Shown here piece after piece: positions 13,328-21,979 of a stretch of DNA of 25,442 nt. The position numbers and the translations under genes are program-made. The notes under the pieces were generated by a model, which searched no databases, had not been told where the DNA came from, and saw only the letters and a list, made by a program, of their open reading frames with translations. Position 1 is the first letter of the stretch. Each line of letters opens with the position of its first letter. This stretch comes from a virus: the IMG/VR virus record IMGVR_UViG_3300014819_000063, positions 1-25,442 of that record. One strand, given 5' to 3'.

Positions 13328-13521
13328 AGATCCTCCAGTGTTGGCGGAGGGCGGCAATACGGCCCGGCAGCTCGTCCGTCGACGTGCCTTGGCCCACTGC
13401 CCACCCAACCGACTGGGCTAAACCCCCCGCCTCACCCCGGCAAAAACGTCCGAGGGCGTTGCATCGCGGTCGGAAGGCGATACTTATCAAAAGTAGCCAT
13501 ACCAGTAGGGCTGGTCAATGA
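13328..13521. other. Divergent intergenic region, no gene seen
   Basis: GC-rich, with a D-arm-like segment on the minus strand (AGCCCAGTCGGTTGGGT, about 13404-13421) but no complete tRNA. ACCAG-TAGGG-CTGGT (13500-13514) is a 5-bp dyad. No clear leftward promoter was found. Confidence 0.4.
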
Positions 13522-13536
13522 ACGTAGAATCTACGT
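13522..13536. promoter_or_regulatory. Perfect 7-bp palindrome at the -35 region (operator candidate)
   Basis: ACGTAGA-A-TCTACGT is a perfect inverted repeat with a one-base centre. It occupies the -35 position of the promoter whose -10 is at 13546-13551, exactly where a repressor or activator would act. No second copy was seen in the window. Confidence 0.5.
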
Positions 13537-13542
13537 CGGATG

Positions 13543-13551
13543 TGTTATAGT
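13543..13551 (+). promoter_or_regulatory. Extended -10 promoter for the 13558-19081 operon (leaderless)
   Basis: TGT followed by TATAGT (13546-13551) is an extended -10 without a good -35. ATG 13558 lies 6 bases downstream and lacks a ribosome binding site, so the first mRNA is probably leaderless. Confidence 0.5.
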
Positions 13552-13557
13552 GCCCGT

Positions 13558-13779
13558 ATGAACGAGAAAACTCCGCCAACGCCAAAAGCCGCCGCAATCT
13601 GGTACCTCTGGTCGTCGGCCTTCAACATGTCCATGAAGCTGGAGCCACGATGGGTCGGTGATGAAGAGCCGTATGCGGTACAATTCCCAACTAGTTATGA
13701 GTCGGGCGACTTTGTCCGGCTATCAGAGATAGAGGCCGAGTGGCTGATTGGCATGAAGACCAGGAGGGTCCGTGGATAG
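13558..13779 (+). CDS. Hypothetical protein (73 aa)
   Basis: The start at ATG 13558 is set by the -10 element 6 bases before it. The product begins MNEKTPPTPKAAAIWYLW, has a Trp-rich middle and a basic C-terminus (MKTRRVRG). No Cys pairs and no membrane helix. First gene of the long sugar/protease operon; overlaps the next gene by 8 bases. Confidence 0.65.
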   Translation: MNEKTPPTPKAAAIWYLWSSAFNMSMKLEPRWVGDEEPYAVQFPTSYESGDFVRLSEIEAEWLIGMKTRRVRG

Positions 13780-14446
13780 GCGAAACCTACTCATCGTTCC
13801 AACAAGGAATCGTCCGGAAAGCGCTTTAGAGCTGCTGAATGAATTCAAGAAAACCGCAGTCATGTCTGACATCGTGTTTGGTGTTGATGATGACGATACC
13901 AGCGTATATTCCGCAGAAGTTCTTGAACACGCAGAGCGGAATCCACGGCTGCGAATGGGTGGCACGTTGAACTTGCTGGCCGTTAAGTACGCGGACCAAT
14001 ACGACTACCTTTCATTTATGGGCGACGATCACCGGCCACGAACGGCAAGCTGGGATTTGCGCCTGGCAAACATGATCGACCAAGGCCCAGGACTTGCCTA
14101 TGGAAACGATCTGCTGCAGGGGGAAAATCTTCCAACTGCCGTAATGATGTCTGCTGAAATTGTAGAAGCAATTGGCTACATGGTTCCACCAGTGCTCGTT
14201 CACATGTACATGGACAATTTCTGGAAAGATCTTGGCAGCGCGCTTGGGGCGCTATCCTATCGGCACGATGTTGTAATTGAGCACATGCATTACCTTGCTG
14301 GAAAATCACAAATTGACGAGGGATACAAAGAGGTTAATCACGTTTCGGTTTACCAGAAAGACGCCGAGGCGTATGGCAAGTACGTTACAGAGTCATTACT
14401 TGCTGACGTAGCAAAGATTAACGCGTACGTGTCGGACGAAGAGTGA
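13772..14446 (+). CDS. Glycosyltransferase-like protein (224 aa)
   Basis: GTG 13772 with AGGAGGG upstream. Begins with RRNLLIVPTRNRPESALELL, a typical GT2-type first strand and loop (VPTRNRP). VDDDD follows the second strand (39-42), and YLSFMGDDHRPR (GDDH, 84-87) is the probable metal-binding motif. A central variable region and a helical C-terminus complete it. Its length suits a minimal GT-A domain. Donor and acceptor unknown. Coupled to the next gene by a GTGA overlap. Confidence 0.75.
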   Translation: MDRRNLLIVPTRNRPESALELLNEFKKTAVMSDIVFGVDDDDTSVYSAEVLEHAERNPRLRMGGTLNLLAVKYADQYDYLSFMGDDHRPRTASWDLRLANMIDQGPGLAYGNDLLQGENLPTAVMMSAEIVEAIGYMVPPVLVHMYMDNFWKDLGSALGALSYRHDVVIEHMHYLAGKSQIDEGYKEVNHVSVYQKDAEAYGKYVTESLLADVAKINAYVSDEE

Positions 14447-15189
14447 AGCAGGTAATCTCCTACAGCTTGTACGGTGAAAACAAACTGTTTATTGCTGGTG
14501 CGTTTAAAAACGTGGCCCTAGCGCAACAGATTTATCCTGACCACATTGTTTGGTTTTATGTCGCCGACGATGTGCCGGAATGGGTTACCAGCTCGTTGCG
14601 TCTGTTCCCGAACGTTGAAATCAAAGATGCGCCACAAAACAACAAATGGTTTGCATCTGCATGGCGAATGCTCGCGTTTGCTGATCGAAACGTTGATATC
14701 GTGCTTGTACGCGACGTAGATGCTCGGCTGACCGTTCGAGAAAAGAAGGCCTATGACGCTTGGCTAGAAAGCGGACGCGATTTTCACGTGATGAAAGACC
14801 ATCCTTCACACAACAAATGGCCGGTTTCTGCGGGGATGTGGGGTGGTTGGGCAGACAAAATGCGAAACATTGCCACGCACATGGGTATGTTTATGCAAGA
14901 GCACGGCCAGGTAGAGCAATACACTGCCGACCAGCGGTTTATTGCAGAAAAGATTGCTGAACGAATTCTTTCAAATTGTCTAATGCATGATTCTTATTTT
15001 GAGACTGAGCTAAAAAGGCCGAGCATTCGAAAGCCATTTCCAACCAAACTAGAAAATCCGGCAAACCATGTTGGGGCGGCTCTTGATGAGAATGACTTTT
15101 ACCGGTACCACGAAGACGAAGGGCTGTCGGTCTTAAACGGCGGCACTGGTCGGTTTGAATACGACCTAGAGCTATTGGAGGAGTACTAA
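14443..15189 (+). CDS. Glycosyltransferase-like protein (248 aa)
   Basis: GTG 14443 overlaps the previous TGA. An N-terminal ISYSLYGENKLFIAGAF is followed by a nucleotide-sugar-type fold with VLVRDVDARLTVREKKA (DVD, 91-93) as the likely metal site, then DFHVMKDHPSH and SAGMWGG. This combination is known from a family of phage and viral glycan proteins, not related to the 10726/11755 pair beyond the GT-A fold. Exact activity unknown. Confidence 0.7.
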   Translation: MKQVISYSLYGENKLFIAGAFKNVALAQQIYPDHIVWFYVADDVPEWVTSSLRLFPNVEIKDAPQNNKWFASAWRMLAFADRNVDIVLVRDVDARLTVREKKAYDAWLESGRDFHVMKDHPSHNKWPVSAGMWGGWADKMRNIATHMGMFMQEHGQVEQYTADQRFIAEKIAERILSNCLMHDSYFETELKRPSIRKPFPTKLENPANHVGAALDENDFYRYHEDEGLSVLNGGTGRFEYDLELLEEY

Positions 15190-16064
15190 TGAATATTTTA
15201 ATTACTGGTCATCGCGGATTTGTTGGGCGACACTTCCAGGAGTTTTATGAGCGTCAAGGGCATCAGATCCTTGGCGTAGATATTGTTGACAGCATGGACG
15301 TCCGAAAGTTTTTCCAAATGGCCAACCATACACAGTTCGATTTGGTGATCCACCTAGCTGCTGTAGTCGGAGGCCGGGCAAAGATTGAGGGAAATCCACT
15401 GTCCGTTGCCGTAGACCTTTCTATTGATGCGGAGATGTGGCAGTGGGCTATTCGAACCAAGCAGCCCAGGGTTGTGTATTTCTCATCATCGGCAGCCTAT
15501 CCAGTTAAGCTGCAAACAAAGCAGTCGCATAAGAAGCTCACTGAGTCAGACATTAATCTCAACGACATCAGCAATCCAGACCTGACCTATGGGTGGTCAA
15601 AGCTTACGGGAGAATACTTGGCACAATTTGCTGAAGCAGAGGGCGTGCGAACGCATGTCTTCCGGCCGTTCTCTGGATATGGCGAAGATCAGGCGCTAGA
15701 TTACCCATTCCCGTCCTTCATTGAGCGCGGACGCAACCGGGACAACCCATTCGTTATTTGGGGAGACGGCACGCAGACTCGTGATTTTGTGCACATCAGC
15801 GATGTAATTGGATGCGTTGACGCTGCAGTAAAGCAGGACTATCGCGGCCCACTCAACATTGGTACAGGTCATGCCACAAGCTTCCAGCAGCTTGGTGAGA
15901 TGGTTGCCAAGGCAGAGGGGTATTTCCCAAAGTTCCAGTTCCTTACGGATAAGCCGGAAGGCGTGAATTGGCGGGTCGCCGACATCTCGGCTATGCTACA
16001 GGTCTACACGCCAAAGATTGACCTTGAAACTGGCATCAAGCGAGCACTAAGCACACGGAGGTAG
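15189..16064 (+). CDS. NAD-dependent sugar epimerase/dehydratase (291 aa)
   Basis: ATG 15189 after TTGGAGGAG. Short-chain dehydrogenase, extended type: NAD-binding GHRGFVG (7-13), SSS before AAYP (99-101), catalytic Y134-x3-K138 (YGWSK), then WGDGTQTRDFVHISDV (191-206) and LNIGTGHATS, the signature of nucleotide-sugar epimerases such as GDP-fucose synthase and UDP-glucose 4-epimerase families. It should convert one nucleotide-sugar into another, supplying the donor for the neighbouring transferases. The exact substrate cannot be told. Confidence 0.9.
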   Translation: MNILITGHRGFVGRHFQEFYERQGHQILGVDIVDSMDVRKFFQMANHTQFDLVIHLAAVVGGRAKIEGNPLSVAVDLSIDAEMWQWAIRTKQPRVVYFSSSAAYPVKLQTKQSHKKLTESDINLNDISNPDLTYGWSKLTGEYLAQFAEAEGVRTHVFRPFSGYGEDQALDYPFPSFIERGRNRDNPFVIWGDGTQTRDFVHISDVIGCVDAAVKQDYRGPLNIGTGHATSFQQLGEMVAKAEGYFPKFQFLTDKPEGVNWRVADISAMLQVYTPKIDLETGIKRALSTRR

Positions 16065-18101: not shown

Positions 18102-19081
18102 GCCGCATTGCCTCGGTCCTTGTCGTGCTCGCCTGCGTATTCCCCCCGACCATTCCCGCTGACGTTGTATTTGCCGCAGAAGACAATTGGGCTCTAGATA
18201 GGATTTATCAGCCATACGGCGACGCATGGACTGGTGGGCGACTTTATCGTAGCGATGGGTTTGACTGGGATGGCAACACTTACGGGAGCGGTATTGTTGT
18301 TTATGTGGTCGACAGCGGAATCAACAACGATAATTTGTTTAACGACGTGCAGGCTGGTTTTACGGCCGTGACAAAAACAACTAATGATTGCGGCACCTTG
18401 CACGGAACAAAGGTTGCCTCGATCATCTCCGGGATTGGCTATGGGGTTGCAGAGCAGGCTTCTATTGTTCCAGTCCGGGTGCTTAAGTGTAACGGCGCAG
18501 GCACCCAAAGCGCCATTGTGGCCGGTCTGAAGTGGGTGCTTAACAACGCTGACCCCGCAGTGTCGGTAGTTAACCTTAGTATTGGCGGATCAAAAAATAA
18601 AGCTATTGATGCCGCCGTGACCAATCTCACAAACGCCGGAATCCCCGTAGTTATCGCCGCTGGAAATAACGGATCAAATGTCAACCGGTATAGCCCATCC
18701 CGTGTCAGCTGCACGGAGGATTTGGCAATTTCGGTGGGGGCATCAACAATGTACGACTTGCCATGGACCGGATCTAACTACGGAGACTGCCTTACGCTGT
18801 ATGCCCCAGGACGAATGGTTACGGCATCAGACGGTTCCGGAGACGCAATTGTGAACGGAACATCTTTTGCTGCCCCCTATGTGTCCGGGGCAATCGCGGC
18901 ATACGCTTCGGCGTTTCAGATCACAACCGAAGAAGCATTTTATGAGATAGCCAATTACTTTGATGCAGCGATTACTATTGGGGCACGAAAAGACACAACG
19001 ACATCTATCCTGCAGATGTTCCCCATCGAGGATGACTGGTCTGGGGACTATTGTTCTGAGTATTATGGTTGCTGGCCTTAG
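18080..19081 (+). CDS. Secreted subtilisin-family (S8) serine protease (333 aa)
   Basis: TTG 18080 has the better spacing from GAAGG; ATG 18086 is the alternative. A signal peptide (residues 1-33, ending VFAA) precedes an S8 domain with the catalytic triad D78 (VVDSGI), H108 (GTLHGTKVAS), S262 (NGTSFAAPYVSG) and oxyanion N196 (AAGNNG). The layout resembles the proteinase-K/kexin-like branch; no long propeptide is seen. Six or more Cys suit an extracellular protein. Such an enzyme in a phage could act on host surface proteins or mature virion parts after export. Confidence 0.9.
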   Translation: MRMQPVLSRIASVLVVLACVFPPTIPADVVFAAEDNWALDRIYQPYGDAWTGGRLYRSDGFDWDGNTYGSGIVVYVVDSGINNDNLFNDVQAGFTAVTKTTNDCGTLHGTKVASIISGIGYGVAEQASIVPVRVLKCNGAGTQSAIVAGLKWVLNNADPAVSVVNLSIGGSKNKAIDAAVTNLTNAGIPVVIAAGNNGSNVNRYSPSRVSCTEDLAISVGASTMYDLPWTGSNYGDCLTLYAPGRMVTASDGSGDAIVNGTSFAAPYVSGAIAAYASAFQITTEEAFYEIANYFDAAITIGARKDTTTSILQMFPIEDDWSGDYCSEYYGCWP

Positions 19082-20505
19082 TACCGGCGGGCGGAGGTAA
19101 AGTAAAAGCCGGAACCACCGAGATCTGAGGCATAGACAAGGGCGTCAACCATGTCGTCGTGCGAGCCATTCGGGAACGCCAGCATCTCAGATTCCAGCTC
19201 GTCAATACCTGGGGCGTTGTTTACATGGAAAACTTTTCCGCCCTCATATCGTGCCGCAAGGGCCCGGGATCGAGTTACCTTATCCCGGTCCGGGCGGACT
19301 GGGCGAGCCGGCAAGGTGGTAGTTGCCAGCATTTCTCGGACAAATGTGCTCTGATGTTGCACTGCCTCGATGTTCATTGACTCAAAAAATCGAGGGTCGT
19401 CAATCTCCGGATCAAGCCCTTTGATGGCTAGGAGTCGCTGGGGCCAGCCCATTCGTGGGCCACGGGCATCGTTAATGCTTCCGTCATTGTTAAACCCAGT
19501 CAGCCAGGCCCGGTGACCCTCAGTAAGACGGGCTTTCCATGCGCCAACGATATAGAGGTTGTGCTCAGAGTCTTCAACAATTTCAACAGCAGCCGTGTAG
19601 TCGCTGCGCTCGCTAGCGGATGACGCAAGGTCTACCCCAATCCTTCGGGCGCCCTCTGGAACTCGATCAACGCGTTTAAACCACTCGTACCGAAAGATAT
19701 TTCCGCCCATGGATGTCACATCGTTCTGGAATTGCAACATGAAGATTGGAGTGCCAAGCTCTTGTTTCTTTTGCTCCATATCGGCAACGGTGTACATCTC
19801 AGGCCAGAGCACTGAGTCGTCTTCTAGGGCGCGTCGCTGGTAGTGCGGAACACCCTTGTTAATGAGCTCTGCATAGAAGTCATCCTCATGCCATCGCGTG
19901 CCGATATACCATCGTTTTGCTTTTGGCACAAGCATTGGGTCAACAACCTGCCAATACGTCTCGCTAGCCTTTTGGCGCTGAACAGCAGTGGCATTCTCCT
20001 TCATGCCAACCATGTCGTCTGCAAAGAGGATGTCAAGACGAGCGCCGGGTTTGATTGATCCGAGACCATCAGCAAAGCAGGTCGAGTCTTTCCCCAGGTT
20101 TGCTCCTTTAACGGTCCAAACCTCGTCAGTCCACTTTGAACCGATGACCCCATCCTGGGCCCAAGGAAAAACCTCGGCAAAATACGGAGATTCAATAAGT
20201 GCCTTAATCGCCCTGGATCGAGCAAGTGCGTCAGACATTACGGCTGTCAAAATGCCAATACGCACTTTTCCGTGCGTTAGTCCAATCATACGTGCCGCAC
20301 GATGAATCAATTGGGTGGTTTTTGCATGGCCGCGAGGCATGAGGACCAGGCCACGATCACTTTGATCAAGGAACTGCTCCATGTCCCGTAAATGCCTGGG
20401 GAAGACTAGGCCGCTAACGTACTCAGCAAACGCCGCGTCAGAGGTCTGCGCTTTTACGCGTAGCCATTCCCTATAGTTGTTATTAACGCTCTTCGGCTGT
20501 TCCAT
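19078..20505 (-). CDS. terL: Terminase large subunit (475 aa)
   Basis: ATG 20505 (a TTG three bases earlier is possible) with AAGGTG upstream, overlapping the small subunit by 23 bases. N-terminal ATPase: a Walker A-like LMPRGHAKTT (about 56-65), Walker B ILFAD followed by D164/D165. C-terminal RuvC-like nuclease with GVDLASS (D about 292), and SHDDMVDAL (D about 450-454). These acidic residues bind the metals used for DNA cutting. The protein packages DNA and cuts it at headful or cohesive ends. The Walker A is atypical (no GxxGxGK). Confidence 0.95.
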   Translation of the reverse strand: MEQPKSVNNNYREWLRVKAQTSDAAFAEYVSGLVFPRHLRDMEQFLDQSDRGLVLMPRGHAKTTQLIHRAARMIGLTHGKVRIGILTAVMSDALARSRAIKALIESPYFAEVFPWAQDGVIGSKWTDEVWTVKGANLGKDSTCFADGLGSIKPGARLDILFADDMVGMKENATAVQRQKASETYWQVVDPMLVPKAKRWYIGTRWHEDDFYAELINKGVPHYQRRALEDDSVLWPEMYTVADMEQKKQELGTPIFMLQFQNDVTSMGGNIFRYEWFKRVDRVPEGARRIGVDLASSASERSDYTAAVEIVEDSEHNLYIVGAWKARLTEGHRAWLTGFNNDGSINDARGPRMGWPQRLLAIKGLDPEIDDPRFFESMNIEAVQHQSTFVREMLATTTLPARPVRPDRDKVTRSRALAARYEGGKVFHVNNAPGIDELESEMLAFPNGSHDDMVDALVYASDLGGSGFYFTSARRY

Positions 20506-20998
20506 CAATCACCTTAATCTGGTCGGTAAGCTCATTCGCCCACATTGTCAGGCGTTTTGCCAGATCCTCAGGCGGAAGCGTGTCAATTTCGTGTACGTTT
20601 TGATTAATTTGAATTGCCACGTTGGTGTTGCCGGTCCTAACCTGCGCAAGCTCATTGGTATACGCCCCGGTTAGTTTTGCCAAGCGGTCGATTACCTCAA
20701 GTTGAAGCTTAAGGAAAAGGGCTTCCTCTTTGGTCCCCCTAGCCCTAGCTGCTCCGCCGGCAGCCATTTTCCCTACCAAGTTTGCCCTCTGGATTAGCTC
20801 CATCCGGCTAGATGCCGCATCTGGGCCCTCTTCGGCCCATTGCTTCCTGATTACATAGATATGCTTCCGGACCGTTTCCGTTGAAAGCTGCATGGCCGTG
20901 GCAATTTCAGGCAAAGGCACACCCTGAAGGTGTAGCCCCTTGATCTTTTCCCGTAGAGCAGTAAGCTGCTCGGCGCCTACGCGCCCACGCTTTGCCAT
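20483..20998 (-). CDS. terS: Terminase small subunit (171 aa)
   Basis: ATG 20998 lies 6 bases from the minus-strand -10 TATACT, with no ribosome binding site. The N-terminal helix-turn-helix (LHLQGVPLPEIATAMQLSTETVRKHI) binds the packaging site on DNA, a helical middle forms the ring, and the C-terminus contacts the large subunit. Identification rests on this fold plus overlap with terL. Its position directly upstream of terL is the usual one. Confidence 0.85.
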   Translation of the reverse strand: MAKRGRVGAEQLTALREKIKGLHLQGVPLPEIATAMQLSTETVRKHIYVIRKQWAEEGPDAASSRMELIQRANLVGKMAAGGAARARGTKEEALFLKLQLEVIDRLAKLTGAYTNELAQVRTGNTNVAIQINQNVHEIDTLPPEDLAKRLTMWANELTDQIKVIDGTAEER

Positions 20999-21004
20999 AG
21001 CAGT

Positions 21005-21012
21005 AGTATACT
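21005..21012. promoter_or_regulatory. Symmetric bidirectional -10 element (AGTATACT)
   Basis: AGTATACT is a perfect palindrome that contains TATACT on both strands. ATG 21019 on the plus strand and ATG 20998 on the minus strand are each exactly 6 bases from their TATACT. Neither has a ribosome binding site. Good -35 elements are not evident on either side. One site can thus serve two divergent leaderless transcripts. Confidence 0.55.
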
Positions 21013-21018
21013 GGCCCA

Positions 21019-21264
21019 ATGAATGAAAACAGGCCCTGTAATTTCTGCGGTGGATCTTCCCCAGACGTTGCCTTTAAGTGTACAAAATGCAAAAAATACA
21101 GCCCGTCGTGCTCATCTCATAGCCAGCGATTGGCAATATGCTACGATTGCCGCACTGATGAGATGGTGCGCACCTGCCTAAATTGCGGGCAGGAGCTGCA
21201 AGACCAGAAGTGCAAGCTGGTATGTCAATGTGGCTACTTTGCTTCGTGCTCTGACTACTATTGA
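21019..21264 (+). CDS. Multi-CxxC zinc-ribbon protein (81 aa)
   Basis: The start at 21019 fits a leaderless transcript. Cys pairs at 7/10, 21/24, 41/44, 53/56 with further Cys at 31, 65, 69, 71 and 77, enough for three zinc sites. The pattern resembles tandem zinc ribbons found in RNA-polymerase-associated or regulatory phage proteins. Function unknown. Faces the terminase operon. Confidence 0.7.
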   Translation: MNENRPCNFCGGSSPDVAFKCTKCKKYSPSCSSHSQRLAICYDCRTDEMVRTCLNCGQELQDQKCKLVCQCGYFASCSDYY

Positions 21265-21613: not shown

Positions 21614-21631
21614 TCCAAAAAGGGGTCCCAC

Positions 21632-21979
21632 ATGGCCGCATCGACATATGATATCGCCGCTGAGCAGGGCACAAATTATGCCGCCACGCTCACATACGCC
21701 AATTCCTCTGGAACAGCTATCAACATTACGGGGTATTCAGCCCGAATGCAGGTGCGTCGTTCGGCCGGTTCGTCCAGCGCCGTTCTCACGCTAACCAACG
21801 CAAGCGGAATTACGCTTGGCGGAGCAGCCGGAACCGTTGCCATTGCTATTCCTGCGGCAGCTCTGGCAGTTGTTGCTGCGGGAAATTATGTTTACGATCT
21901 TGAGCTTGTCTCTGGTGCTGGCGTCGTTACGAAGCTGATCTCCGGAGACTTCATTGTCACCGGAGAAGTTACCCGATGA
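21632..21979 (+). CDS. Virion-associated beta-sandwich protein (115 aa)
   Basis: ATG 21632 after AAGGGGTCCCAC. The sequence YDIAAEQGTNYAATLTYANS, INITGYSARMQVR, AVLTLT, and YVYDLELVSG..V..L..GDFIVTGEVTR follows a widespread phage structural family, with an Ig-like N-terminal fold similar to BppU-type baseplate or tail accessory proteins. It opens the tail-fibre gene cluster, so a role as a collar or baseplate attachment piece is likely (inference). Confidence 0.7.
   Translation: MAASTYDIAAEQGTNYAATLTYANSSGTAINITGYSARMQVRRSAGSSSAVLTLTNASGITLGGAAGTVAIAIPAAALAVVAAGNYVYDLELVSGAGVVTKLISGDFIVTGEVTR

Follow-up and report, generated by a model that had tools for sequence, protein, structure and literature searches.

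A bidirectional promoter, in which one symmetric −10 element gives two leaderless mRNAs, is the best reading of the short gap between the terminase operon and a divergent zinc-ribbon gene in this phage DNA. We give this reading a probability of about 0.73. The initial annotation had proposed a symmetric −10 driving two leaderless genes in opposite directions, and the comparisons reported here support that proposal: the symmetry tracks the position of the divergent ATG, and the 6-nt distance between −10 and start codon belongs to a class of putative leaderless starts seen phage-wide.

In the proposed mechanism, the octamer AGTATACT would act as a single symmetric −10 that RNA polymerase with a primary sigma factor could engage in either orientation, so that both strands would be transcribed. 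The leftward leaderless mRNA would carry terS and terL, and the rightward one would carry the zinc-ribbon gene and the tail module behind it. As each predicted +1 falls on the A of an ATG, the site would make two leaderless mRNAs, and translation of both would start without a leader. Occupancy by two polymerases at once would be impossible. Since the polymerases would thus be mutually exclusive, the two directions would be expected to compete when the promoter is strongly used.

Layout of the divergent site

By the window we mean the whole 25,442-nt stretch of DNA that was analysed. The features needed below are:

19078–20508, minus strand: terL, terminase large subunit, 476 aa, second gene of the operon (PHROG 38, E 1.1e-67; Terminase_6C, E 2.6e-07)
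20483–20998, minus strand: terS, putative terminase small subunit, 171 aa, with an HTH-like N-terminus, positioned just upstream of terL
20996–20998, minus strand: start codon of terS (CAT)
21005–21012, both strands: palindromic octamer AGTATACT, the candidate shared symmetric −10; the same octamer occurs in a second lineage
21005–21010, minus strand: predicted terS −10, TATACT, 6 nt from the start codon; kept in 24/24 related loci
21007–21012, plus strand: predicted −10 of the zinc-ribbon gene, TATACT, with 6 nt to the ATG; conservation limited to clades A and B
21012, plus strand: the deciding base, T, position −7 of the zinc-gene −10; C on the plus strand in clades C, D and E
21019–21021, plus strand: start codon of the zinc-ribbon gene (ATG)
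21019–21264, plus strand: zinc-ribbon protein, 81 aa, Cys-rich, predicted to be leaderless; its gene opens the plus-strand tail module

Positions 20996–21021 of the window read CAT-AGCAGT-AGTATACT-GGCCCA-ATG. The spacers, AGCAGT on the terS side and GGCCCA on the zinc side, have six bases each, and TATACT-N6-ATG is read from either strand. The two TATACT hexamers within AGTATACT overlap reciprocally on opposite strands through their common TATA. A palindrome with an ATG 6 bases away on each side had been described here, and both the coordinates and the spacing proved exact. The description of 26 bases of common control DNA holds for the layout but not for the length, as the 26 bases include both start codons; the non-coding gap between the divergent genes is 20 bp (20999–21018).

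Start sites were predicted by counting the usual 7 bases on from the final T of the −10 (PMC12825309). The predicted +1 pair is the A of each ATG, at 20998 on the minus strand and 21019 on the plus strand, 21 bp apart. Bidirectional promoters have been defined by start sites 7–25 bp apart (PMC10268837), and the modal separations are 18, 10 and 23 bp, with variation around the modes (PMC12825309). The predicted separation therefore lies inside the defined range and is not one of the modes.

No recognisable −35 or TGn extension was found in either direction in the window; the triplets at the TGn position are CAG on the terS strand and TAG on the zinc strand. Scanning the window with the sigma-70 consensus returned promoter-like sites at chance level and none at the octamer locus, which the scan misses because the −35 is absent. 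The absence of both elements on either strand suggests that basal activity may be low or that an activator may be needed.

Within the window, the octamer by itself is not rare (present in 17/100 shuffles) and TATACT-N6-ATG, with one mismatch permitted, occurs at chance level. Neither the octamer alone nor the one-sided motif is significant, and both were rejected as statistical evidence. With 2 mismatches or fewer permitted, the whole pattern on both sides occurs once in the window, where 0.05 would be expected. The main sequence evidence against chance is conservation and recurrence elsewhere.

Both flanking genes are real. The assignment of a terminase operon and a zinc-ribbon gene to the two sides was borne out by the PHROG 38 match of terL and by the zinc-ribbon ORF being kept in 24/24 loci, with its Cys pairs and an invariant CGYFASCSDYY tail (longer form CKLxCxCGYFASCSDYY). 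The 171-aa gene was called terS because the large terminase gene comes next; its protein is invariant from M1 onward among relatives and has weak HTH matches. No match to terS was found in named phage records or in bacterial genomes, and the terL matches in named phage records were all below 60% identity, so no cultured relative or host could be assigned. The zinc-ribbon gene was missed by a simple gene caller; its protein has no match in Pfam or PHROGs and its predicted structure (pLDDT 42) was too low in confidence for use.

The C-terminal module of the zinc-ribbon protein (21157–21264; VRTCxNCG...KCKLxCxCGYFASCSDYY), which belongs to no recognised Pfam family, was also found in numerous other contigs of phages, as well as in MAGs of Myxococcaceae and Chloroflexi. 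Scanning for the zinc ribbon gave 77 viral loci and two MAGs. No terS homologue divergent to the zinc ribbon was found in the scanned loci outside the terS family, and these loci are therefore uninformative on the promoter.

Conservation and recurrence of the octamer

When the terS protein was used as a query against IMG/VR, 23 relatives were found, which with the window makes 24 sequences. In 24/24 loci the terS side consists of a −10 (TATACT or TATATT), exactly 6 bases and ATG; the first T of TANNNT is about 12 bp upstream and there is no Shine–Dalgarno (SD) sequence. On the zinc side, this leaderless arrangement was found in clades A and B (6 or 7 nt), and the zinc-ribbon genes of clades C and E are SD-led:

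Clade A (window, L002–L005): zinc ATG 6 nt from AGTATACT, without SD
Clade B (L007–L009): zinc ATG 7 nt from AGTATACT, without SD
Clade C (L006, L010–L021): octamer GGTATACT, zinc strand TATACC; the gene starts 13 nt away behind AAAGGAAA (SD)
Clade D (L022, L023): zinc ATG far off, with its own TATAAT 8 nt upstream
Clade E (L024): zinc gene SD-led, with GGGAG ahead of the start

The symmetric octamer is limited in the terS family to the clades with an SD-less zinc start 6–7 nt away, and in clades A and B it is invariant although the spacers vary. In a tree of terS and terL, A and B form one clade (99/98 support), with C adjacent and D and E outside under midpoint rooting. A single origin of the symmetric form is thus the simplest explanation.

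The terS −10 is preceded by TGG or TGC in clades C, D and E, and by CAG or AAG in clades A and B. Extended −10 promoters carry TGn. In the symmetric form, A takes the place of the G in the terS extended −10, and this A is read on the opposite strand as the T at −7 of the zinc-gene −10. Judging from these sequences, the symmetric form appears to have arisen from a one-way extended −10 form. The G (TGGTATACT) would have been replaced by A (CAGTATACT), at the cost of the terS extended −10 and with the gain of the −7T for the neighbour's −10; the neighbour's start codon would then lie 6–7 nt away, without SD.

The terS promoter alone would keep 6/8 octamer bases, and C21011 and T21012 are the only two in the octamer that argue for the zinc direction. 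Beyond the first 25 codons of terS, four-fold sites are invariant at 6/44 positions within A and B and at 0/30 over all clades. With four-fold sites near saturation, the octamer bases have not been kept through lack of time to change.

The start of terS is also unusually conserved. Seven of the nine codons 2–10 (20969–20995, minus strand) are identical in all members of A and B, compared to 24/128 over the whole gene, and other gene starts in the terS-family phages have no such excess of synonymous freezing (30% versus 27%). The frozen codons may mark a site for packaging or for a regulator, or may belong to the promoter region. Together with adjacent codons they contain GGCGC-GTNG-GCGCC, which was rejected as a hairpin since its folding was no better than that of shuffles.

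Another leaderless/SD-led switch was seen at 21620–21640, for the 115-aa gene downstream (PHROG 1084). It has its own putative promoter, TAnnAT-N5/6-ATG, in clades B, C, D and E, and an SD-like sequence in clade A (window, G003).

To place the 6-nt spacing in its genomic setting, starts were predicted by a simple gene caller on five related genomes and the window (519 starts). TAnnnT at spacing 6 was present at 23/519 starts, compared to a mean of 5.5 at other spacings (Poisson P 2e-8; orthologues are not independent). In the second lineage described below, the corresponding values were 19 and 3.0 (210 genes, P 5e-10; orthologues are again not independent). Spacing 6 is kept by four gene families in at least three genomes, versus at most one family at any other spacing; these families include terS, a 73-aa gene (TGnTATAGT-N6-ATG) and a 102–104-aa gene (TACACT-N6-ATG). 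SD-like motifs were found at 298/519 starts. With such motifs at over half of starts, these phages would appear to mix SD-led and leaderless modes, as many bacteria do (PMC3160421).

At 13513–13560, the motif of the 73-aa gene (IWYLWSSAF) is a conserved predicted extended −10 leaderless promoter. Conserved in six genomes, AATCTAC lies 11 nt upstream of its −10 and is possibly an activator site. A plus-strand cluster at 13862–16064 holds a glycosyltransferase-like gene (PHROG 14945) and a nucleotide-sugar epimerase (PHROG 540), with one unidentified gene between them.

We then scanned IMG/VR for CAT-N6-AGTATACT-N6-ATG, and both ATGs were tested for ORFs of at least 60 aa. Control sites were AGTATACT at 9/9 spacing and the control palindrome AGATATCT at 6/6 spacing. 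Among the matches listed, 9/90 distinct 6/6 sites had such ORFs on two sides, versus 1/153 controls (Fisher 7e-4), and 62/90 versus 43/153 had an ORF on at least one side (8e-10). Several of the nine two-sided sites, among the matches listed, are relatives from one family (L168, L193, L203). Three further unrelated viral contigs with the same pattern and ORFs on both sides (L265:272–297, L268:307–332 and L175:3488–3513), with GC contents from 34% to 59%, are possible further cases of this architecture.

The family of L168, L193 and L203 constitutes the second lineage, with 51 members. A 267-aa gene lies just before its terL (PHROG 38, 1.3e-32), and BLAST found no similarity between its terminase proteins and the terS and terL of the window. 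In this lineage the divergent gene encodes a DUF3310 protein rather than a zinc ribbon. The site reads CAT-N6-AGTATACT-N6/7-ATG, with the octamer kept and the spacers diverged (pairs GGTGCC/TGCAGT, CGGTCC/TGCAAGT and GCAGGT/TGCGTG). In three sites the divergent ATG is 9 nt away, which implies a 2-nt leader. Members L400–L413 and L421–L425 have no DUF3310 gene at the site, and there the sequence is TGTATACT or GGTAT(C/T)AT, the latter preceded by T and thus an extended −10.

Over both lineages, a divergent ATG lies within 9 nt at 16/16 distinct symmetric sites, compared to 0/12 asymmetric ones, an association that by the tree reflects about three independent changes and not 28 independent cases. 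Related phages had been named as a place to check the symmetry, and in two lineages the site is symmetric where the divergent ATG is 6–9 nt away and otherwise not.

The evidence is evenly poised as to whether at least two phage lineages independently reached the same minimal device at the head of the terminase operon, i.e. an 8-bp symmetric −10, two leaderless mRNAs and a 20–21 bp gap, with one-base conversion to or from a one-way extended −10 as the divergent partner gains or loses dependence on it.

Alternative readings of the site

The most serious rival, which has a minor but real chance of being correct, is a one-way promoter that drives only terS as a leaderless gene. The zinc-ribbon gene would then be transcribed from within terS or by long read-through, and the symmetry would be a by-product of TATA. 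TATACT already holds the palindromic TATA, and a single added A creates the decisive −7T of the opposite strand. Conservation is also far stronger on the terS side than on the zinc side, and the zinc-ribbon gene of clade C lives without symmetry. A one-way promoter leaves unexplained, however, that symmetry and the position of the neighbour's start change together in both lineages. Loss of the extended −10 G is confined to sites with a nearby neighbour. Furthermore, the zinc-ribbon gene in clades A and B has no SD and a predicted start without a leader, and scanning the plus strand within terS gave no sigma-70-like promoter.

It is improbable that the promoter is bidirectional but serves the zinc direction through the overlapping hexamer TAGTAT (21004–21009), so that transcription would begin near 21016 and leave a 3-nt leader. 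This hexamer is a poorer −10 than TATACT, would put its +1 on a C of the window and is missing from most second-lineage sites (CCAGTATACT). TAGTATA is kept in clades A, B and C; in clade C it would give a short leader opening with the SD, and so would explain the short SD-bearing leader there. The resulting 18 bp is the commonest known separation, the E. coli mode (PMC12825309). Why octamer symmetry tracks the leaderless start is nevertheless left unexplained by this hexamer.

Very unlikely, in our estimate, is a palindrome that is primarily an operator for a dimeric regulator (e.g. terS itself, through its HTH) with promoter activity secondary. Palindromes are typical of operators, and the weak HTH matches of terS and its frozen first codons would fit. 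Against this, eight bases without an extended dyad are short for an operator, the identical octamer and spacing occur in phages with unrelated terS, and the distance to the start codons matches that of the putative leaderless class found across these phage genomes. Coincidence without function, for which the presence of the octamer in shuffled sequence could be cited, is scarcely credible given its invariance at saturating divergence, its recurrence in the second lineage and the control scans.

Relation to known promoters

Symmetric −10 elements are established sources of divergent transcription in bacteria (PMC12825309, PMC10268837), as the initial annotation had said in stating that such elements fire both ways. 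Competition between the directions was found only when one direction was strongly activated (Grainger, Wade and colleagues; PMC12825309, PMC10268837). Leaderless 'TA-led' genes have TANNNT about 12 bp upstream of the start codon, and relatives switch between SD-led and leaderless starts in bacteria (PMC3160421). Both ingredients, the bidirectional promoter and the leaderless start, are already known; their combination in phages was not found in the literature searched, of which coverage was incomplete. Within that literature, the new elements are the union of both in one 8-bp element, its recurrence at the terminase operons of two lineages and the one-base exchange with an extended −10.

Most of what is known about bidirectional promoters comes from the mapping of start sites in model bacteria, where a promoter in use is not easily distinguished from transcriptional noise. 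Evolution offers an independent readout here, in that the second direction comes and goes with the neighbour's start codon. If the two-way reading is correct, a divergent control region could hardly be smaller than this one, at 20 bp with the promoter included; terminase supply would be tied to a partner gene; and the site would provide a clean test of the trade-off between extended −10 and symmetric −10. Phage annotation can miss genes started at such promoters, as happened with the zinc-ribbon gene here.

The site resembles the bacterial bidirectional promoters described by Warman, Grainger, Wade and colleagues in having a symmetric common −10, read both ways, between divergent genes, a predicted start pair within 7–25 bp and an expectation of mutually exclusive polymerase binding. 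It differs in being a phage site at terminase operons, in its predicted 21-bp separation, which is no reported mode, and in that both RNAs are predicted to have no 5′ leader, with the −10 sitting 6 nt from both start codons. As in TA-led genes (PMC3160421), the first T of TATACT is 12 nt upstream of each ATG, there is no SD, and relatives switch between SD-led and leaderless starts; unlike in those genes, one phage element would serve two divergent leaderless genes. Finally, TGn precedes the terS −10 in clades C, D and E, and also in part of the second lineage, as it does in extended −10 promoters, whereas the clade of the window has A in place of that G and is symmetric instead.
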